DNA from: Apostichopus japonicus
Taxonomy: Eukaryota > Echinodermata > Holothuroidea > Aspidochirotida > Stichopodidae
Length of the DNA: 64,000 nucleotides
Direction: 5' to 3'
Assembly: GCF_037975245.1 (NCBI RefSeq)
Contig: NC_092568.1
Location: 33,698,501-33,762,500 of the forward strand
Under the pieces are notes generated by a model that made no database searches, was not told the origin of the DNA, and saw nothing but the letters and a program-made list of their open reading frames with translations. How positions within the stretch are numbered: the stretch's first letter is position 1; each line of letters starts with the position of its first letter. The translations under genes and the position numbers were made by a program. This document shows positions 8,054 through 57,822 of this stretch, piece after piece.

Positions 8054-31680
<23,627 letters not shown>

Positions 31681-34487
31681 TATCAGATCTGTCCGAGGTG
31701 ATTTATTTTGCCTTGTTAAGAGTCAGGACGGTAGCTCTAGTCTTAGGCTCCTTGATATTTCCCCCCACTTCATCTACACACCTGTAAAAGAGCCAAAGGG
31801 AAGATTCATGGATAATTAGAAGAAAACATCATAGAGAATAGCAGAAATTTTCGGTCCTAACATTATAAATTGGCACTTTGAGACAGAGACCACTGTACAA
31901 ACTTTGGTGGTGAAAAGCTTGCTTAGCATTTTAAATTTGTAAACAAACAGTAATGACACAAAGTTTAACTTTCTATGGGACTGGACAGTAGGAGATTAAT
32001 TAGTTGAATGACACAACTAAATCAAACAGCAAACTCTGAGAACTAACTACTGTAGCATACTGGTAATTCCATTGAAAGGCAAATTGTGTTCTTACTTGAG
32101 CATACAGCTAGTTTAAAATAAAGGAAAAGAAATACAACAATAACTATCAAATTTTGAAGCGGTAAATTTAGCCATGTAGACTAGTTACCATACAGTATAT
32201 ATATGCCAAGCTAGACATTGTGCAATTCACACTATTGTACGGTATACAACTCCCTTACATAACTTTATTCAAAGTTGAACGAACATATATTCCCTTTTCC
32301 TGACAACTATAGGCAAGTCGATCCAACCCCAGCCAGTTTCAGTCCCTTTCCCATTAAAGTGGGTACTGTAAATAACTTCATTTTTTCGTCCTTCGCTGAA
32401 ACATTGCATATAAGAAGCAGAATCTTGTGTTTGTATCTTTGCTGCGCATGATAGCTAGCTTGGGCTATTGAATTTGATGTACAGATAAAGAACTCAAACA
32501 GTGGCGGAGCGTCCATACAGTCAGGGGGGGGCGGATGCCCCCCCTGACGGACCCAAATGGACTGCTGGTGCCCTTTTCAGCTTTTTACAACTTTTTACTC
32601 GCGATTATTGCCTTTTTTATTGTGCTCTCATCTACCTATTGACATTTGTCACATTATCTGCAAATTAGCAAGGCCCGGAAAGGGTCATTTCCGGCAATCT
32701 AGGAAGTATATTTACTCAAAAAATTTCTGTATGCTCCGCGCCAACCCGTGGTGGCCCTCCGTTTGGATAGTGTCGAAAGTGCCCCTACAGACCATTCTCG
32801 CCCCCTCTGACCAATACCCCTAGCTCCGCCACTGACCTCAAAGTCTCAGTTTTGATGTAAGATAGAAATCTCAGTACAGTAGCTGCCAACTACAGTAGGC
32901 CTGATGTTCTGCGAGCCATTTAGTTTCAGCCAGTCATTTCCCCAAGGGCCTAACTGAGATATTTCCTGGTAATCTACAGTCAACTAATTTGTCACATAAC
33001 TAATATTAGCAATAAGACACTTACTAGTATAAGGCACTTACTTATACTTTCTAATCATCTTTTACCTGATTAACATTACATTTAATATTTCAACAAACGT
33101 GCAGTATATTCCATACCTTGCAAAAACGTTCCAGTTTTTGCCATGGCAGAAAGCACCTATTTGTATGGTAAAGGCGTTTTTCTACCATTTTTCTAAGGAG
33201 GGAACATCTGCGCATACATACACTGTAATGCATCTCTCGATATCATAGCCTAGTACTGAAGACAGGGCATTATTGGCTGGCTTAGAACTAGCCGATTAAG
33301 TACTATATTAACTTAGTACTACTGAGTACTGTGGGAGAATCACCTAAGGCAGCCTAAGTTATAGTAGGCTAGCATAAGTATAGGCTAGCCTGGTTACGCT
33401 AGTATTAATAATTAGGCCTAGTAATGCCGACGAAAAGTGTGTAACTCCTAAATGTAAATGGATATTTACGGGATCGTGCAACTTGTGGACATAACAAACG
33501 AAACGTATGATTACCCAGATTTTTCCTAACAGCAAGGAGTCAAAAGTGGTTCCTGTTTCAGCATACGTGCAGTATTCGTGTAACTTGTTCGTCTATGAGT
33601 GGGTACATTCGAATTCCAGGTGTTGTGTGTACACATGACGTACAATTTACTGTGCAAGTTGCAAAGTGAGATAGCAGACGGCAAAGGCAACGACAGTGTA
33701 TTTTTTATAGAGGTCAGGTGTATTTGTAAAGTTAGTCCATTTGTGTATAGTGTCTGCTCAGATAAAATATCCTACATTGTAGCTTATACATCACATTTAT
33801 ATGGACAATGCATAAGGGCCGTGAGCTGGGGAAGGAGGAAGGTGAAACCTCCAAAGTGCCCCTATTCATAAATCAGAAGTGTCTCGTTCCATTTGGTAAT
33901 TAAGAGAAACGAACAAATAATAATCAAAATGTATAACTGTTTTGTTGAAAAACATTCAAATATATGGAATATGTGTTAAGATCGAGTACACAGAGGGATC
34001 ATTTATGTCTGGCGGCTTTGAGGTGATTCTCCCCCAATCATATCAAAGTCACATGTCCCACTGCCCTACGAAGTCTCCATCCCTTCTCTTTGTACATTGG
34101 CAGATTGAACCTCTTCCGTCGCCTAATCTGCTATTCACCTTACAATATAGGATTTGCATTGTTCCAAGGATAATTGAAGTAACACAAGATGATGATGCTC
34201 TCTAATCTATTCAGCGTGTTCTCTCTACTACTAGAATATACGTGACCACAGAAACAATATGAACTTTCCAAGAAGTGATAACCTCTGACCCTTATTATTT
34301 TTCTATGACTATAATAGTTGCTTTGGGGTATCAAGTGAGAGGATTTGAGAGATTGGAATGGTTGATTGTATTACTACAGGTGCTTAATACATGACTGAAA
34401 GAAGGTATAAAAGGTAGCATCGTTTAAACACTACAGGCAGTGTTCAGTCAATACATCCTAGTACCTTTACTTAAGGTTCCGAGTACC
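31681..34487. other. ABCC10 upstream region
   Basis: Holds the putative 5'UTR part of the first coding exon (31681-31780), an upstream intron ending at 31781, and the hAT-like element 32499-32834. The first non-coding exon and promoter are not identifiable by eye. Confidence 0.5.
32499..32834. mobile_element. 336-bp hAT-like element
   Basis: Inverted ends CAGTGGCGGAGC and GCTCCGCCACTG. The flanking 8-mers AACTCAAA (32491-32498) and ACCTCAAA (32835-32842) differ by one base. Inside is the GGGTCATTTCCGGC block and a CGCGCCAACCCGTGGTGG hairpin shared with the other elements. It lies upstream of ABCC10. Confidence 0.85.
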
Positions 34488-34571: not shown

Positions 34572-34625
34572 TTTCGAGGGGAATGGTGATGAACACCCGA
34601 CGATGATCACACAGTCACAGTCCCG

Positions 34626-37035
34626 ATGCAAGGGAACTGGGACATTGAGTTACTTGCTGTGAGAGCTCGTCCTCGGTTTCTGCCCAGTGACATATCAAAC
34701 ATGACTATCGTAAATGTGTATACTCGCCCTTCAGCAAACTTCACGGTTTCGAACGCAGCGTTGAAAAATGCTTTAACATCAATTTTAATGGAGAATCCGC
34801 GTTCATATATCATTATTGTTGGGGATCTCAACAGGGACCGTTTACCATTCCTCGAAACAATGGGCTACAACAACCTCGTAAATTTTGTCACCTTCCCAAG
34901 ATCTAACACCATTTTGGATGCTGTGTACGTTAAAGGTTGGAGTTACTTCACTGCCAAGAAAATGCATCCTATAGCTACATCAGATCATTTCAGTGTTCTA
35001 ATTATGCCACGATACACAGAACGTTATCGAGAAGTTCAAAAGATACCAAGACCAAAGGAAAGAGACACCAGGAAGAGTAATGTTGACAATTTACGAGTGA
35101 TGTTGGATTCAACAGATTGGAGGGTTTTTACAGATACGTGTGACACCTTAGATGAATTGACACAAGTAGTATCATCTTACATCAATTTTACAACTGATAT
35201 CTGCATTCCTTATAGGACAATGTCACACTCAGAAGTTATGAAAAGATTGCCAGCCGATGATAAGATCAAGCAGTTGGAGAAAGAGAAAAAGGAAGCAATT
35301 GATGACGGTGACACTACTCTACGGAACAGGTTACAGAGGCAAATAAACAAACATGTGTTCAAGAGGAGGAATGAATACTTTCAAAAGGTAACAACAGACA
35401 AACAGTCTCTGTGGGATCTACTCAAATCAATACGGAAACCAGATGAACAGCAAAGAAACTTGGTAACTGATGAGTTTGGCCAAAAATTAAGTCAACACTT
35501 CGGACGTTTTAATGATGCTTCGAGCAAAGATATTTCATTTATACTACCAGACCTATCAACTGCTGAACCACCAGTAATACTAAAGAAAGATGTAAAAAGA
35601 CAATTTGGACTTGTTAAGATAGGAATTGCGTCTGGTTTTGATCAAATTCCCTGGTGGGTGTACAAGTATTGCTCTGAAGAATTAGCTGGCATATTCACTA
35701 ATTTATATAATGTAAGTTTAAATGAGAATTCAATTCCGTCCCTATGGAAGCACGCTAAAACATCACCTGTGCCTAAAATCTCTATTCCAACATCTGTAAA
35801 CGATTTTAGACCAATTGACATGTCCAGCATTGGTTTTAACTGTATGCAAAAATTATTATTTCCATACTTGACGCAGGCAATCGTATCACACGGTGATAAA
35901 AATCAGTTTGCCTACAAAAAAGGCGTGTCCTGCACAGATGCTATACTCAAGCTCGTACATTGTGTTTGTTTCTGGTTTAAATCAGAGTGACACAACAGTC
36001 ACTAAAGTTTTATTCTTAGATTTTTCAAGTGCTTTTAATACGGTTTTACCAAATCGGTTAATCCAAAGTTTGTGTAGTTTTATCAATGAGCCTTGGCTTA
36101 TACATTGGTTGGCTAATTTTTTACATGGATGGTCTCGACAAGTCAAGCTACAGAAAGGTTATTCAGAGGAATCAAATATTACAGTGGGAGTCCCCCAGGG
36201 AGGTCCTCTATCTGCGTTACTTTTTACAATATACACAGATGATATACGTTCTTCAATGGGGTGTGATGTAATTAAGTACGCTGATGATACAGCCATATCC
36301 TGTAACATTTCAAAGCGGACACACCTTGAAAATCAAAATGACTATAAATACTGTATTGATAATATGGTCAATTTGTGTGAGCAGAAGAACCTCTTACTTA
36401 ATCCAAAGAAATCTAAAGAAATAATTTTTGAAAACATTAACATTAAACATCAAGGTCTCATTCAGACCAGGGATCAGAAAACTTATGTTCAAGGCTCCAT
36501 TGTTGAGCGGGTGTCTCATACTATGTACTTAGGGGTTGATATTGACGCCAAGTTAACCTTTACTAAACATATATCTAAATCGATGTCTAAGGTGTATTAT
36601 ATTGTATCAACGTTGGCATATATTACTCCTTATTTTCATTCTAATGTAAGAGATAAGGTTTTCAACTCATCAATTCTGCCAGTGATTGTGTATGCAGTTC
36701 CTGTCTGGTATCACTTTCTACTTGAAAAGGACAAGAAAAGAATTAGAAGTTTCTTGAAATACTGCTCCAAAATATTTAATCTCGACTATGAAAGCCTTGT
36801 TGGTAAAGTAAACACTGCTGCTAAAAATGAATTCATAAGACTAGCTAAGAATATACATAGTTCTAAAGATCACCCACTTCACTCCGAGTTGATCTCTCTG
36901 TGCAATAGAACCAGCAAGTACAATCTACGTAATCCTACTATCTTGCCATCTTTTAGAATTATGCTTTTTAAGAACTCATTTATCTACAGAGCAGCCATTT
37001 ATATTCAAAATGGGTTCTTAGAATCTCTGTTATAA
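34626..37035 (+). pseudogene. LINE endonuclease-reverse transcriptase, single frameshift
   Basis: The first frame (34626-35990, 454 residues) has the C-terminal half of an APE-type endonuclease: the GDLNRD motif and the SDHF motif are present, but the N-terminal catalytic part is missing. It then has the fingers of a reverse transcriptase up to the conserved AYKKGVSCTDAILKLVH. Around 35960-35990 the reading shifts by one base into the second frame (to 37035). That frame continues with VLFLDFSSAFNTV, the GVPQGGPLSALLF motif and the catalytic YADDTAISC, followed by the thumb. There is no other stop or shift, so the copy is recent or nearly intact. A truncated 5' end joined to a foreign head fits template switching during insertion. 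Confidence 0.85.
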
Positions 37036-45057: not shown

Positions 45058-46258
45058 CATGGGCGGCGATCCGTACTTCCGAGTGGGGGGGATATGACCT
45101 TGTTCACTATCTAAGCGTAGCGCCACCATGAGTTGGCGCGAAGCGTACAAGAAAATTTTGGGATTTACAAACCCTCTAGATGGCCGGAAACGGCACTTCC
45201 CGAGGTTTCCAAGCGGCATATACCCAACTTTCAAATAGGGATATCAGGATCCAAAATACTTTTTTTTTAATTTCGGGTGTTATTTTGGGAAAATTGCTCC
45301 TGTCAATCTTGTTTCAGGCGCTACGTTAGAATGTTCGAGAGCTCTTTATATTATTCGATGAAGAAACTGGCCTCATGCAGGCTATTATAGGCCTATACAC
45401 ATGCAATACACAATTACACATAGTTACATTCCTAGGTACCGATTGCTAGGGCATCCAGGTGAAACGTACGTGTATTAACAGGGGCGTCGGAAGCTATTTG
45501 GGATTGGTAAGGAAGATCAGAGTGTGGCCATCTACCATAATTATCGGGGGGGGGGGGACGTTTGGAAGGTCAAACTACGCTACGCGCCACCATTGGTTGG
45601 CGCGTAGCGTAATGGAGAAAATTTTGAAAAATGCCTCCCAGATTGCAGGAAATGGCACTTCCCGAGCTTTTCTTCTGTGCATTCTCCCTTGTCTGTTTTT
45701 GTACCCGATTAATCTTCTGAAACACATTTTGAAGTATGTTTCATTTTGGTTCTTTATTTTATGCCTTTTTTTTCTTCTTAGTGCTACTTTTTTTCTCCCT
45801 TTTTTTTGCGCCGTGAATATTGGTCCGGCGAACCGCTCCGACGCCCCTAATTAAGCATTACCCTGGTAACATGAGATTCTCAGCTGTTCGAGGGAACATG
45901 TACGTGTGTAGGCCTACTATAGGGCCTATATGAATACTATGAGCGTGCATATATGTACTATATCAATACCGTGGGCGCAATAATACATTTTGCTGTTATA
46001 GGGCCAATGAAGCCTACAGTCAACTATTCTTGCTTTATAAAGACGGTTTATTTGAAAAGATCGCACTGCGTTTATGGTAGGCGAGAAATGAAGCTAAAAA
46101 AGAGCCGTACATTCACGATGATGCATAAATGAAGGCATGAAAATATTCTTATTCCTGGCATTTGGTGGGGGGGGGGGGATATGGTGTATTACATCCCCTT
46201 CACCCATTTTCATGGAGGGATATATCCCCCCATCCACCCCCCAGGATCGCCGCCCATG
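45058..46258 (+). mobile_element. hAT-like element, right copy, with insertion
   Basis: Same ends and sequence as 40291-41137, apart from small indels and the 371-bp element inserted at 45479. Its right end is 88 bases from the broken tandem-UBL gene. Confidence 0.85.
45479..45849. mobile_element. 371-bp element inserted into the right copy
   Basis: Ends CAGGGGCGTCGGA and TCCGACGCCCCTA. The flanks give a 5-bp duplication ATTAA (45474-45478, 45850-45854) when compared with the empty site in the left copy. It contains a GCGCCACCATTGGTTGGCGC hairpin like its relatives. hAT-like ends with a shorter duplication than usual. Confidence 0.85.
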
Positions 46259-46346: not shown

Positions 46347-48061
46347 TCAGTATTTCTGTATATCCATTCTAAATTCCTCTTGGGACAGAGATAGTTGATG
46401 ATCTCTTTTTAGTTTTTCTAGAATACCTCCGATTGTATTGCTGAACCCTACATCAATGACCTCTCTCCTACCTGAAGGAGTATGGACTACACACTTATAG
46501 TTAACGATTCCTGAAGCGCGACCTAACAAGTACACTTGACTGTGGTCCGTCAATCTACATTCTGACAAGCGCTTGGTGTCGGTCAGAATAGCTCCTTCAA
46601 AAATAATCAACTGATGGTCTGGTGGAATACTCTCCATTTCACTTATCATTTGCTTGAGGTCATTGACGGTTTGTGAGTCGTCCAAGTGCAGTGTTAAAAC
46701 CTTGCCGTTTCTCAGTTGGCAATGTAGTTGTATGAACCTCACTTTACTTATCTCCAACTTAATGATGGAGTTATCCTTCAGAGTATAGTCTGACAGATGT
46801 TTAGCTTCATCTAGTGTATTCCCGGCAATAGTCAGGAGTTGCTGTTTGGCGGTTACATTCAATTCTCTTTCTATGAGCAACTTTAAGGTGGTGATAGTAT
46901 CATTTGGTCGAACTTTAAAAGGCCTCGCAAGACCACCAGGGCACAGTATTAATACACACATCCAACCAGGTGATATTACCAAAAGAGTAAGGCGAGAGTT
47001 ATTTTCAATGTTGTTGCTAAAGAGTGTCGTATCATCGTTGAGTTCATGGCTAACGAGAAACAGGCGCTGCTGTTTAATGGATACACCTTTGGCACTTTGA
47101 ACTTTGGATTTTATCGATGCTATGGTGTCAAATGACTTCACACTTAAAGGCCAGATAGCTCCGTCTAGTAACTGCACCTCTATCTTCAGGGGCATTGAGG
47201 GGCGCAGCGTAAGCTGAAGGGTGAAATCTGATGCAAATAGGCACTCTTGGTCTTCCATTTTTCTTTCTTTGTACCATAAACTTGTTGATCTGGATGATAG
47301 CCAGTTTCGGAGTAGATAGAATATTTTATTGAAGAAAAGGTCGAGCCAGGGCTACCGATCACATTAAAGGAACAAGTTGATGTCTCTACTTTCAAAATGT
47401 GGCCGCCTCCTCCTCTTAGCCGTAAATCCATGTACACTGTACACCCATTACTGATGCCATAACTTAAAATACTCCTTTCGTCTTGCAGAGCGTAACCACT
47501 GTATATTAAACGCACCTGATCTGGAGGAAAGCCTGTCATATCTTGTAGTTGATTTTTTATATCTGTAACTGTGGCGCTGCGTACTACATTGAGCTGGAAG
47601 GATTTCCCGGATCGATCTTTAACAAGTACCTCTATGCCACGGCGATATAAATTGACAACGTAGAAATTGAAAAGATCTGCTAGATGTGAGATATTATCAT
47701 TTTTGGTTGATTTTAATGATCCATTTTCAGTAAGCAGATCTTTCTGCTGCATGCTAGGAGCCAACACTTCAAACTTGTAATTTGGCATTACCTTCATTTA
47801 CGTAGTTTCATCTAAAGATGTTTCAAGAGATATATTTGATCGACCTACGCTATTTGAGGGGCCTAAGCTATTTGGATACAAGTCGCCTTTCGTGGTAGTG
47901 TTCGAGTCTTCCCCTGTCGTTTCCCTCATGCTCATTCTCCCTAGTGCCTCTTGGGTGGAACGAAGACAATCATCAGTGCCATCATGATGTACCGTGTCTT
48001 TAAAATTATGAGATATTGCATTTCTGTTTCCCCGTTGGCTTCTCTTTCTTGGCTTATCCAT
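46347..48061 (-). pseudogene. paralog of the tandem UBL gene, broken by a stop and a frameshift
   Basis: It starts MDKPRKRSQRGNRN at 48061, just after an acceptor (TTTTCTGCAG ending at 48070). After 87 codons an in-frame TAA (47800-47798) interrupts, and the same frame continues with ATG at 47797. A 76-residue UBL follows, ending LRLRGG: Lys48 is Tyr, Lys63 is Asn, Ile44 kept. A one-base frameshift falls near 47270 in the second repeat, close to a run of A and GA. The rest (from 47258 to the stop at 46347) carries UBL3-6 matching the intact paralog, including DTIASIKSKVQS and the same truncated last domain. Both breaks could be sequencing errors. Alternatively the TAA could lie in an intron starting at the donor-like AC|GTAAAT. 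The 3' end is only 80 bases from a transposon target duplication. Confidence 0.75.
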
Positions 48062-52383: not shown

Positions 52384-52394
52384 TTATTGATATA
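48085..52394. other. upstream of the broken UBL gene, no gene seen
   Basis: It must contain the 5'UTR exon of the broken tandem-UBL gene if that is still transcribed. Otherwise there is the degenerate tandem repeat at 49537 and a G run at 51343. Confidence 0.5.
49537..49975 (+). repeat. degenerate short tandem repeat
   Basis: About 20 diverged units of 20-25 bases around CGAAAAACCTGGATTATCGG, varying at many positions but keeping CGAAAA, CCTGG and ATC. Confidence 0.75.
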
Positions 52395-52520
52395 TATTTG
52401 AAATTCGTAGTGAGTTGGGAAATCCAGAAAAGTGAAAAACCTTCCAGCCCCCACCGTGATTCGAACCCGGGCGCGAATTTTTTTCCCAAACAGGTTTGCA
52501 ATTACGGAGTTTTCCGCCAA
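52395..52520 (-). mobile_element. SINE fragment, family 2
   Basis: On the minus strand: GGGTTCGAATCACGG (box B-like), then GGTTTTTCACTTTTCTGG and CCCAACTCACTACG, ending in a TA-rich tail. The head is interrupted by GCGAATTTTTTTCCC/CAAACAGGTTTGCAATT, a module also next to the copy at 53780. Confidence 0.65.
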
Positions 52521-53778: not shown

Positions 53779-53880
53779 GCAATTGCAAACCTGTTTGGGA
53801 AAAAAATTCGCAACCCGGGCCTCGCGCTTTATATGCGGACACCCTAACCACTAAGCTATGGACGCTGATTGTATATCCAG
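53779..53880 (-). mobile_element. SINE head, family 2
   Basis: On the minus strand: GTCCATAGCTTAGTGGTTAG followed by GGTGTCCGC, a tRNA-like box A region, then a degenerate box B and the same CAAACAGGTTTGCAATT module as at 52490. Confidence 0.6.
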
Positions 53881-54094
53881 AGGTTCGGAAACGGTAAGGA
53901 ATGTCGTAATTCCACTGTAGGCGTTTGTCACCTGTATCGAACAATACTTTTTTCTGTTTTGGTGACATATTTGCCTTGCTCTAGAGATCAAACATGATGC
54001 TTACAACTCGAACTAAAACCGAATCTCGAAAGAGATACTTTGAACAGACTTTGTAAATGAAATGGAGGTAAACGACAAAAGCAAATGAATATAT

Positions 54095-54180
54095 ATATAT
54101 TTGAAAACGTAGTGAGTTGAATAATCCAGAACAGTGAAAAAGCTTCCAGACTCCACCGGGATTCGAGCATGGGCCTTTAT
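54095..54180 (-). mobile_element. SINE tail, family 2
   Basis: On the minus strand: a box B-like CGAATCCCGGTGG, CTTTTTCACTGTTCTGG and TTCAACTCACTACG, ending in TATATATA. Same tail as at 52400. Confidence 0.6.
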
Positions 54181-54239
54181 AGGTGGCAAAAGCTTACAGT
54201 GGAATGACGACCCTTGTTTCTGGTTCGAACCCATGGACA

Positions 54240-54368
54240 CACTATCGGTGTCCATGGCCTAGTTGGTTAGGGTGTCCGCAAATAAAGCAGGAGATGCGGG
54301 TCCGTATCACTGTGGAGGTTTTTTCACTCTTCTGGATATTCCAACTTACTACCTCTTCAATTTCATAT
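54240..54368 (+). mobile_element. SINE, family 2, abutting the tandem-UBL gene
   Basis: Head GTCCATGGCCTAGTTGGTTA followed by GGGTGTCCGC (box A region), a degenerate box B GGTCCGTATCAC, and the family tail TTTTTTCACTCTTCTGG. It ends one base before the stop codon of the 54370-56040 gene, in opposite orientation, so it forms the gene's 3'UTR. Confidence 0.65.
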
Positions 54369-54369
54369 T

Positions 54370-56040
54370 TTATGGTTGTAATTCAAAAGTTATTTGTTCT
54401 TGCTCAATTTGTATTTTAGAGTCCTCTTTTATCTTCTGGAGGATAGCTTCCATCGTGTCACTTCGCGATGCACCAATATTGAACATCACATCACCAGCAG
54501 GAGAACGTAAACGAAACACTACCTCTCCGGACAATTTCGAAAACAGAAGAACTTTACAAACGTTACTGATTTCATAGTATGAAAGACATTTTGCGTCTTC
54601 TAATAGTGTCCCTTTATAAAGAATCATTTGTTGATCTGCTGGAAGTCCCTCTTCCTGACTGATTAGATGCTTTAGGTTCCTTACGGTTTCTGTGCGATCC
54701 ACGCGATATGTTAACATCTTGCCGCTTCTCATTTGAATATGGAGAGTTATGAATTCCAGCTGACTTACCGTCAAATGAATAATAGAATTACTCTCGATTG
54801 AATAATCTGATAGATTCTTTGCATCCTCTAAAATATACCCGGCTTTCATGAGACGCTGCTGTTTTGCGCTGACGTAAAATTTTCTTTCAATGATCGCCTT
54901 TAAAGATTTGACAGTATCCCGTTGATGGACTTCTATTGGCATTACCAGACCAGTAGTACACGTTACGTATAATGTCATGTACCCAAATGGTTTCACTATG
55001 AGGGTTAGGTGATGATCGTTTGTAATGTTATTATGAAACAGAGTTGTATCATTCTTTAATTCCCTATTTACACAGAACAGTTGTTGTCGTGCACTGGGAA
55101 TGTTTTGGGAACTTTCAAGCTTTGACTTTATCGATGCTATGGTGTCAAAATAGTTAACTTGTAAACGACATGTTGCTCCCGTCAGCGATTGTACCTGTAT
55201 ATTCATGGGACCGTCGCTACGCAGAATGACGACGAAATTGCTACCATCTGTCGAATACTTCGACACGGGACAATTATCACTGGTTTCTGTGTTTTCATAA
55301 TATATAATCTGTCGGTCAGGGTGGTAACGATATAACCAGTAGATTCTTAATTTCACTACGTTCATATTGGACTCTGGCGTGACTCCAGTTACAGAAAGCT
55401 TCTTACCAGTTAATGTCGTCACAGTCACTTCGAAGCCACCTCGCAATTTTTGAACCAAATGTAAAACGGATCCTTGCGTGATGCCACACAACGACAGAGG
55501 TCGAGTGAACTCCAATTGCAGTCCACTATATATAAGACGCATTTGATCTTGGGGGAGTCCTTCTTTTTTAAAAATTTGATCCGCAATATCTTGAACCGTA
55601 CCACTTCTAAGCACAGCGATTTCAATTGTTTTCCCTGTCAAAGTTTTGACAAATATCACTATACCATGTAGGTATAAATTGACAAAAGAAACATTTGGAA
55701 AATATGTGATGTTTGAAAAATTACCATCATAAGTTGTCGATTTGGGAGATGTCCCTTGTACACATGTACGCTTCTGATCTTGTTGTAAGCTTGTGATTAA
55801 TTCTTGCAATGTTTCACGTGGTCTTAGTTTGAATTCATTTAGCGCCCCGGAAGATGTTTTAAAAACCATCGTTGATACACCACTTAGGCCACCTTTCGTA
55901 CGTTTGGCGTCTGTCGATATCCACAATTCTGTGAGCTGAACTTCATCCATTAACTCAGTCAATCTTAATACAGGTGCCGTTTCTCTAAGGTGACGATTTT
56001 CTTTTCTTCCCTTTCCATCGTTGTTTCCAGATTTGTCCAT
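54370..56040 (-). CDS. tandem ubiquitin-like domain protein (six UBL modules)
   Basis: Single 556-residue frame beginning MDKSGNNDGKGRKEN. I chose this ATG because a good acceptor (CTCTTATAG|GAAAC) lies 5 bases upstream, and the paralog at 48061 has the same arrangement. A longer reading upstream to 56151 is therefore probably intron. After a variable N-terminal region there are UBL repeats at about 127-202, 203-277, 278-353, 354-428, 429-505 and a truncated sixth at 506-556. Repeat 1 is 76 residues, keeps Lys6, Lys11, Lys33, Leu8, Ile44, Val70 and ends KLRGG, but Lys48 is Leu and Lys63 is Gln. Later repeats lack the GG and resemble each other in motifs such as DTIASIKSKLES and QQRLMKAGYILEDAKNLSDY. 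Likely role: a modifier or scaffold that binds ubiquitin receptors; no named family can be assigned. A SINE lies directly past the stop. Confidence 0.85.
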   Translation of the reverse strand: MDKSGNNDGKGRKENRHLRETAPVLRLTELMDEVQLTELWISTDAKRTKGGLSGVSTMVFKTSSGALNEFKLRPRETLQELITSLQQDQKRTCVQGTSPKSTTYDGNFSNITYFPNVSFVNLYLHGIVIFVKTLTGKTIEIAVLRSGTVQDIADQIFKKEGLPQDQMRLIYSGLQLEFTRPLSLCGITQGSVLHLVQKLRGGFEVTVTTLTGKKLSVTGVTPESNMNVVKLRIYWLYRYHPDRQIIYYENTETSDNCPVSKYSTDGSNFVVILRSDGPMNIQVQSLTGATCRLQVNYFDTIASIKSKLESSQNIPSARQQLFCVNRELKNDTTLFHNNITNDHHLTLIVKPFGYMTLYVTCTTGLVMPIEVHQRDTVKSLKAIIERKFYVSAKQQRLMKAGYILEDAKNLSDYSIESNSIIHLTVSQLEFITLHIQMRSGKMLTYRVDRTETVRNLKHLISQEEGLPADQQMILYKGTLLEDAKCLSYYEISNVCKVLLFSKLSGEVVFRLRSPAGDVMFNIGASRSDTMEAILQKIKEDSKIQIEQEQITFELQP

Positions 56041-56045
56041 GTTTC

Positions 56046-57822
56046 CTATAAGAGTACAAAATGATGTATTGCTATATTTAACAACTATCTCTTTTATAAT
56101 ATCAAAAATGATAACAGCTGCTAGAACTAGGACTACATTGTGAGCTGACATTTTGGCCGGTTATGACCCATAGTAGAAAGCAGAAATTATTCCATAAAAG
56201 CCATAACTTAAATTTCCATACATAATTTATAGGCAGTGCCTCGGCTGGGCCTAATATAGGTCATCGACCAGTAAATTATAATATTTTTGGGCACAGTTCA
56301 AAGGTCCGGTTTATGTACTGTTGACCTGATATGGACTTAACTTATTTAATGAAACTTGTTTGGCATCTTTAGTAATTTATACAGTGTATTGATCATAAAC
56401 AAAGCAGTTGAAGTAAAACTTCACATACCGAAACATACTCGCATCCTTTGACTAAGGGTGGGGCTTGTGATATTCATTTTGACTTCATACACAGAAAACA
56501 CAAGTACTCACAAATGCGAGTAAACTTAGATCCCTGATTTTACTATCCGTGGTAGTATTTATACTTGCCGGTATTGAGTAAAGATACTGATTCGGAGCAG
56601 TTGATTTACTAGTTTAAATGTTTACAATTACTAGGCAGATAGTGAAAGTACTGCTTTCAGTGTTGTCCCTGATTTCACTAACCAAAGTAGTAACATATTA
56701 CATGGTCAGGCATGTAAACTTACTAATACATATTTATAGTACTGATATGGTAGTTAGTAGATATACACAGATGAGCGATGATAACAAACAGAAATTTAGA
56801 GTTTATTTCTCTTTTTATTGAACTTGTAAAGAACATTTTCATATTCCAACATCTCAAAACACAAATACCATGTTTTTGATAATGAAGTTCTTAAGATACA
56901 TATGATAAAAAACTGATGCTGTACTTCCCCATGACATACTAAACCTCTGACAATAATCAAGCAGCAAAATGCATGAGAAATTACGATTAACTTCGAGAGA
57001 AACACAAATGCTACTGTGGTAAAGTCAGTTGACAAAATCCATCTTCTTAGGTTCTTATAAATATTGCAATAGGTCTCTAAAGTTTTTTGGCAACTTTTAC
57101 TTAAAAACAGCTACTTTATACACTTAAACTCAATGAGACCTCACCGACACATTTGCAAGGACAAACCCTATAAACTGAATTAGGTGAAAAACAAGAAACA
57201 CAGATAAATGACTAACACAGATAAATAAACAACCATGAACAAAACACAGAACAAAATGTTTAAAACACTGATTTCTTTAAGTATGCACATCCTGCAATGT
57301 GATACTGTTAGCTTTTGATTTAAACAAATGCAATAACAGAAAACTTATATGTATTTTGGAACTGTTGAATCAGTAATGCTAATCATTTGGTAATCAATCA
57401 AGCTTAAAAAAATCAATTAATTCTGGCCTTAACTTATCTTTACTTTTGCGATCAAATCAGGCAAGCTCAGACTGAAACACTAATGCTGGTTTCTATGTAA
57501 ACCAGCCCTTTTTTTTTTTGATGGTATAATTTAACCACCATGAGAAATCACACAAATACCGACCTCTTCCTTTGCAATGAATCTCTGAACATGCTTGAGC
57601 TTTCCATCCTGTTATCCCGCAAAGAGATTTCTTCTGATTATCCAAAATTCAGAAAAAGTCCCCATTCTACGTCAAAACAAATAGAAATGGCTTCTCTCGA
57701 CAAGTACATAAGTGATCTAATTAAGGCAAGAAATATTGCAACAGTGTGCAACAAAAATGTTAAAGTAATGAACACAAAAAGATAAAAATCCTCAGGTAGC
57801 AAAGCTTTGCATCATATAAACA
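56046..57822. other. upstream of the intact UBL gene
   Basis: Begins with the acceptor of the 5'UTR intron (CTCTTATAG). The upstream exon and promoter are not identifiable. No other gene was seen. Confidence 0.5.

Follow-up and report, generated by a model that had tools for sequence, protein, structure and literature searches.

Polyubiquitin genes such as UBB, UBC and UBI4 encode ubiquitin as head-to-tail units of 75-76 residues in an uninterrupted frame. Few proteins are as conserved as ubiquitin, and the repeats within a polyubiquitin gene normally stay near identical. According to PMC11354881, these genes typically hold four to nine repeats. Gene A, found in the 64,000-nucleotide stretch of the Apostichopus japonicus genome analysed here (the window, C8:33698501-33762500), has the same head-to-tail organization and, like the polyubiquitin gene of this genome, an acceptor motif shortly before its ATG. 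It differs from polyubiquitin in that its full modules are only 28-54% identical to ubiquitin, just one of the five ends in GG, and an N-terminal extension and a half module have been added to the array.

A has escaped strict conservation, as have UBQ7, UBQ8, UBQ9 and UBQ12 of Arabidopsis and some ubiquitin genes of Plasmodium. The four Arabidopsis genes are diverged genes of the polyubiquitin type, and their repeats are far closer to ubiquitin than those of A. We know of no diverged plant or Plasmodium ubiquitin gene in which a single tail is conserved within a long array. The diverged Plasmodium genes described in PMC10457151 are ribosomal fusions or carry a one-codon insertion.

Diverged tandem ubiquitin-like domains (UBLs) are also present in ISG15, FAT10 and avian OASL. 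In these proteins the GG is terminal or nearly so, whereas in A it is internal and four and a half UBLs follow it. ISG15 and FAT10 have two tandem UBLs; in A the segment that precedes R1, M0, is only weakly UBL-like, and the GG would have to be exposed by a cut before it could serve in conjugation. Avian OASL ends in LRLRGG, which ISG15 uses for conjugation, and chicken OASL is described as conjugating itself (PMC8764230), a precedent for a conjugating tail of this kind on a diverged tandem UBL. OASL has an OAS nucleotidyltransferase domain, and USP7 and USP47, in which diverged UBLs that lack GG are lined up as in A, carry a protease domain. Neither an OAS nor a protease domain was found among the 14 Pfam matches of A (up to E 10). 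To our knowledge, USP7 and USP47 have no near-ubiquitin module with LRGG.

No description of the layout of A was found in the literature searched, which agrees with an earlier note on this DNA that knew of no named family for it. The layout is not isolated, however, as the window contains another copy and contig C16 six relatives. This family has left the strict-conservation regime of polyubiquitin and diverged module by module, and its copy A has a single candidate cutting tail and a record of long-term selection. Regarding the wider setting, PMC8195603 mentions animal proteins in which TRADD-N is fused to polyubiquitin, and it counts echinoderms among the groups in which TRADD-N has expanded. 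Polyubiquitin and RNF31 are reported to be up in the injured holothurian nerve cord (PMC9657328), and a putative polyubiquitin-B is listed for the coelomic-fluid proteome of one sea cucumber (PMC12119288).

Anatomy of gene A

Gene A, coding for a polyubiquitin-derived multi-UBL protein, lies on the minus strand at 54370..56040, stop codon included, and is an intact frame of 556 residues. The frame is open for 596 codons (54370-56160), with the ATG at 56040 as the likely start. A chance open frame is ruled out, as no open frame exceeded 192 codons in 60 windows generated by a first-order Markov model. A likely splice acceptor AG is placed at 56046..56047 (minus strand), 5 bases 5′ of the ATG, from the motif alone (CTCTTATAG / GAAACATGG). 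An AG acceptor motif occurs 2 to 8 bases 5′ of the ATG in the canonical polyubiquitin gene, in A, in copy B and in two of the C16 copies, c1 and c2. No AATAAA poly(A) signal is present on the minus strand in the approximately 1.9 kb past the stop of A. Copy B has one at 46047-46052, and the motif is not enriched across the window. Heat-shock elements were absent from the 3 kb upstream of A or B, in a search that had no valid control from the canonical gene.

The protein starts with an extension of 55 residues (residues 1-55; 55876..56040), followed by the 71-residue segment M0 (residues 56-126; 55663..55875), five full UBL modules and a half module. All are encoded on the minus strand, and the modules are joined head-to-tail without linkers. 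The first three residues are M-D-K in A and copy B, and MDQ in c1 and c2. R1 (55435..55662), R3 (54982..55209), R4 (54754..54981) and R5 (54526..54753) are each 76 residues long, and R2 (55210..55434) has 75. R6 (54373..54525), with 51 residues, is a C-terminal half module that has the same end in copy B. Thus the six modules of the earlier note are five full UBLs and a sixth that is only half a module.

In an HMM search against UBL families, a check that the note had proposed, Pfam PF00240 matches the whole protein in five stretches with 226 bits (E 2.9e-68). When the modules were scanned singly, four of them (R1, R3, R4 and R5) exceeded the family cut-off and R2 fell slightly below it (23.8 bits vs 25.4). 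The same scan gave no match for the segment before R1, which includes M0, and none for R6. R6 reaches 62% in hhalign against a UBL profile. For M0 the evidence is weak: it has no Pfam match, an hhalign probability of 29% local and 3% global, and a shuffle z of 3.5, so it is at best a possible degenerate UBL. Among solved structures, 367 distinct sequences match A at E 0.001 or better. In the 60 of these matches that were listed, polyubiquitin entries rank at the top, and the best stretch of these top entries is R1, approximately residues 126-212.

The fold appears to be kept beyond R1. At the 15 positions that we take to form the ubiquitin core, hydrophobic residues occur at 15 in R1, 12 in R2 and 14 in each of R3, R4 and R5, and at 8 in M0. 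R2-R5 are 28 to 41% identical to ubiquitin and, as had been noted before, none of them ends in GG. Few exact residues of the binding face remain in these modules. From among Leu8, Ile44, His68 and Val70, one is kept in R2, one in R3, two in R4 and none in R5, although positions 44 and 70 are hydrophobic in all four.

R1 is 54% identical to ubiquitin and retains Phe4, Lys6, Leu8, Lys11, Lys33, Ile44, His68, Val70 and the tail Leu73-Arg74-Gly75-Gly76. The earlier note had described a module of ubiquitin size that keeps Leu8, Ile44, Val70, Lys6, Lys11 and LRGG and has lost Lys48 and Lys63, and this description holds; the two lysines are replaced by Leu and Gln. Its account of the losses was incomplete, as Lys27 has become Ala, Lys29 has become Gln, and next to the tail Arg72 has become Lys and Leu71 has become Gln. 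The LRGG (55435..55446, minus strand) is a candidate cleavage site and the sole GG ending among the five full modules. The residue directly after it is Phe, not Met, and A has no Gly-Met junction.

Elsewhere in the window, ABC-transporter exons lie within 8887-31722 on the minus strand, with ABC_tran matches at 8887-9201 and 20726-21277 and an ABC_membrane match at 30034-31722. A LINE-type remnant lies at 34593-37032 on the plus strand, with matches to a reverse transcriptase and, below the cut-off, to an endonuclease, in two overlapping frames. Short dispersed repeats, 79-87% alike and, as judged by eye, apparently tRNA-derived, are found just downstream of A at 52390-52464, 53826-53933 and 54093-54288.

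Relatives in the genome and descent from polyubiquitin

The genome searched is a 671.6-Mb assembly of 35 contigs. Of seven genetic codes tried, six leave its COX1 open; read with table 9 (AAA = Asn, ATA = Ile), the protein has Asn and Ile at the sites where these are conserved, which supports an echinoderm. The genome contains at least 97 matches to PF00240. Protein A, used as a query against the whole genome, found 53 matches, of which the best after A itself were copy B and the C16 relatives. The canonical polyubiquitin gene, with nine near-perfect units, is on contig C13, which rules out that A is the ordinary polyubiquitin gene.

Copy B was found by tblastn within the window, on the minus strand at 46347..48061, with its ATG at 48061 and a stop codon ending at 46347. 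It is about 40% identical to A and has in common with it the MDK start, modules R1 to R5 and the half module, so A cannot be a one-off layout. Comparison with A places an in-frame TAA at 47798..47800 and a frameshift in module R2 (region 47270..47290, near 47280), both on the minus strand, and B therefore looks like a pseudogene. Its R1 (47408..47635, minus strand) ends in LRLRGG and also lacks both chain-forming lysines, with Tyr48 and Asn63 in their place. It has lost Leu8, His68 and Val70 as well, replaced by Arg8, Tyr68 and Asp70. As B keeps the tail and loses these face residues, the tail and the binding face evolve separately.

A longer relative is present on C16 as a tandem series of six copies, each whole or partial, over approximately 90 kb (17131.8-17222 kb). 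Indels shift the frame in c1 and c2, and c2 also has a stop; c3, c4 and c5 are short pieces spread over several frames. The last copy, c6, has an open frame of 2123 codons at C16:17215260-17221628 on the plus strand (loci L017-L018), and its 5′ part is interrupted. Beside diverged modules, this frame encodes 18 head-to-tail units that are 70-89% identical to ubiquitin. GG is kept at five of the 18 unit junctions, all KGG, and lost at 13; four junctions read RGS and others RRS or RRG. Met follows each of the first 17 junctions. With so few GG endings and with RGS junctions, c6 on paper encodes a long, largely cut-resistant linear ubiquitin-like chain.

Eight copies of the family were found. Seven of them, B and c1-c6, have stops, frameshifts or truncations, and A is the sole copy free of lesions. 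The lesions in B and the six C16 copies suggest a dispensable family. Viral contigs, scanned once for a viral origin, gave two pattern matches and no relative. A search of the genome for the HOIP UBA domain gave no match and is uninformative, as its controls gave no match either.

A tree of 40 modules was built from six modules of A, five of B, 14 of c6 (including five of its 18 near-ubiquitin units), ten of c1 and five others; it did not include R2 of B, because of its frameshift, nor any module from c2-c5 or some further two-UBL units. It pairs the modules of A with those of B at supports of 0.85 (R1), 0.99 (R3), 0.93 (R4), 0.99 (R5) and 0.85 (R6). It also joins R4 of A to two C16 modules (0.92), R2 to a C16 module called HPD (0.84) and R6 to the half module at the C-terminus of c6 (0.80), and it groups R3 with the C16 module X1 (0.79), which is located before HPD. 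However, blastp ranks HPD seventh for R2 and finds no match between R6 and the c6 half module. Given these blastp results and the position of X1, module order is shared only in part between A and C16. Sequences of 76 residues give weak trees, so we regard the A-B pairing as firm but the connection with the C16 tail only as partial.

The position of the acceptor motif, the 75-76 residue phase of the units and the mixed arrays of C16 all point to descent from polyubiquitin. The frame of A is also uninterrupted, with head-to-tail units as in a polyubiquitin precursor, apart from the 75 residues of R2 and the half module R6. The natural reading is that the family formed by A, B and the C16 copies arose from a polyubiquitin gene, probably in an echinoderm lineage.

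Several other ubiquitin-like frames were seen in the genome. A two-UBL frame of 176 codons lies at C11:18416955-18417482 on the minus strand (L021). Its unit 1 ends in LRLKGG and its unit 2 in LRLPGGS before the stop, and its size and layout are those of ISG15. Two similar two-UBL open frames, at C16:15606549-15607139 (plus strand, L019) and C16:15660898-15661482 (minus strand, L020), have short charged linkers (such as NRHADETRSG), a C-terminal FMKFVY and module ends without GG. A single unit 51% identical to ubiquitin is found at C10:12768323-12768658 on the minus strand (L023) and ends in LRLRGGEDDYGC.

Selection on the array and on the tail of R1

A and B were compared in a piecewise alignment of 538 codons, from which gap columns and one stop codon had been dropped. 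The two are 40% identical over these codons. At fourfold sites, 58 of 91 differ, so silent change is near saturation. Omega is 0.25, with a likelihood ratio of 86.3 against omega 1 (p 1.6e-20). Neutral evolution of the array, which the earlier note had named, together with a lack of transcripts, as fatal to its proposal, is ruled out by this value. By segment, omega is 0.233 for the N-terminus with M0, 0.044 for R1, 0.133 for R2, 0.295 for R3, 0.367 for R4, 0.353 for R5 and 0.222 for R6, all of which are rough values as the segments are short and silent sites saturated. Omega 1 is rejected in every segment (p 0.0061 or less), and R1 has the lowest, if rough, value of the seven. Purifying selection acted over the history of A and B, and it appears to have kept A. 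On C16 the constraint is weak: 13 comparisons, of which two may be between different units, gave omega values from 0.25 to 0.77, and the units of c6 have a median omega of 0.67 (136 pairs).

The tail of R1 was examined by itself. The LRGG residues are equal in A and B even though all four codons differ. Under the silent clock estimated from the entire A/B alignment, and for these two sequences only, the probability that four residues stay unchanged is 9e-5 at omega 1 and 0.035 at the gene-average omega. Just two of the 535 four-codon windows have identical residues with every codon changed, LRGG and YHPD. Over the last five residues of the modules, R1 matches between A and B at four, R3 at two, R4 at one and R5 at two; no value is given for R2, which is frameshifted in B. 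The LRGG of R1 thus appears to be conserved beyond the gene average, with mild significance (0.035). The tail of ubiquitin sits outside the fold, and conservation of the fold alone would not preserve LRGG. Its persistence through four codon changes favours a function for the tail.

Possible workings of the protein

We propose as the leading reading, rating it as somewhat short of probable, that A encodes a precursor that is cut once after R1, which would release a modifier extended at its N-terminus and leave an array of UBLs. The earlier note had offered both a cut of this kind and an uncut decoy or scaffold. The family would have lost the self-cutting design of polyubiquitin, as four of the five full modules of A lack the GG that deubiquitinases need. 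Because GG is kept only after R1, the translation product would most likely be cut once. A single cut after the LRGG at residue 202 would release a piece of about 22 kDa, consisting of the extension, a possibly degenerate UBL and R1 with a free LRGG, and would leave a piece of about 40 kDa with four and a half UBLs (both masses are from residue counts). Without Lys48 and Lys63, R1 cannot build chains through either residue. If conjugated, it may act as a chain cap or as a tag of the Lys6/Lys11 type. The leftover array may be a multivalent partner of ubiquitin receptors. Deubiquitinases grip ubiquitin by the face formed by Leu8, Ile44, His68 and Val70, and the retention of all four in R1 of A counts for a single cut. 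Changes at Arg72 and Leu71 may weaken contacts with E1 and with deubiquitinases, and Lys72 and Gln71 in R1 count against it, as do the doubtful standing of M0 as a UBL, the loss of face residues in B despite its intact tail, and the lesions in the other seven copies. The 13 junctions of c6 without GG also fit an uncut chain better than a cut one.

The close rival of this single-cut precursor is that A stays whole, as a tandem-UBL scaffold or decoy that binds ubiquitin receptors and stands in for a ubiquitin chain while resisting cleavage. We consider this possible, and c6 leans towards it. The LRGG of R1 would then be a leftover or part of a binding surface. GG has gone from every full module of A except R1, and c6, with GG at five of its 18 junctions and RGS at four, has gone the same way. 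The core of the fold is kept in R1-R5, and positions 44 and 70 stay hydrophobic in R2-R5. There are also parallels for such a protein: OASL is described as binding RIG-I through its tandem UBLs (PMC8764230), and a tetraubiquitin with Ser76-Met1 junctions is reported to be left uncut by OTULIN (PMC3690481). However, the tail of R1 is conserved above the gene average, exact mimicry of ubiquitin outside R1 is doubtful given the few face residues kept in R2-R5, and the residue after the GG of A is Phe rather than Met. We judge it unlikely that A is a decaying gene, one that diverged after duplication of polyubiquitin, has no present function and is open by luck. The lesions in seven of the eight family copies and the weak constraint among the C16 copies (omega 0.25-0.77 in 13 comparisons) agree with decay, yet an omega of 0.25 between A and B, with silent sites near saturation, indicates a protein constrained for a long time, and 556 codons of A are still open. 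It is highly improbable that A is an artefact of the assembly or an ordinary polyubiquitin gene. R1 does have the size of ubiquitin and 54% identity to it, but the canonical gene with its nine near-perfect units lies elsewhere, identity to ubiquitin is only 28-54% across the full modules of A, and B repeats the layout.

Should the single cut after R1 take place, it would show how polyubiquitin can naturally give rise to a new modifier of the ISG15 or FAT10 kind. Should the protein remain uncut, the genome would encode a cut-resistant ubiquitin-like chain. It is tempting to speculate, though we hold it to be doubtful, that echinoderms made a new modifier system from polyubiquitin in which one conserved cut would launch a conjugable tag that forms no Lys48 or Lys63 chains. 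The rest of the chain and the RGS-type relatives on C16 would then be encoded cut-resistant linear ubiquitin-like chains that influence the receptors of ubiquitin, with a possible part in immunity.

One further observation concerns the assembly. Besides the mitochondrial contig C35, pieces of COX1 with internal TGA codons are present at C29:14745-31219 on the minus strand. They may be rearranged or nuclear mitochondrial DNA, or a by-product of assembly.
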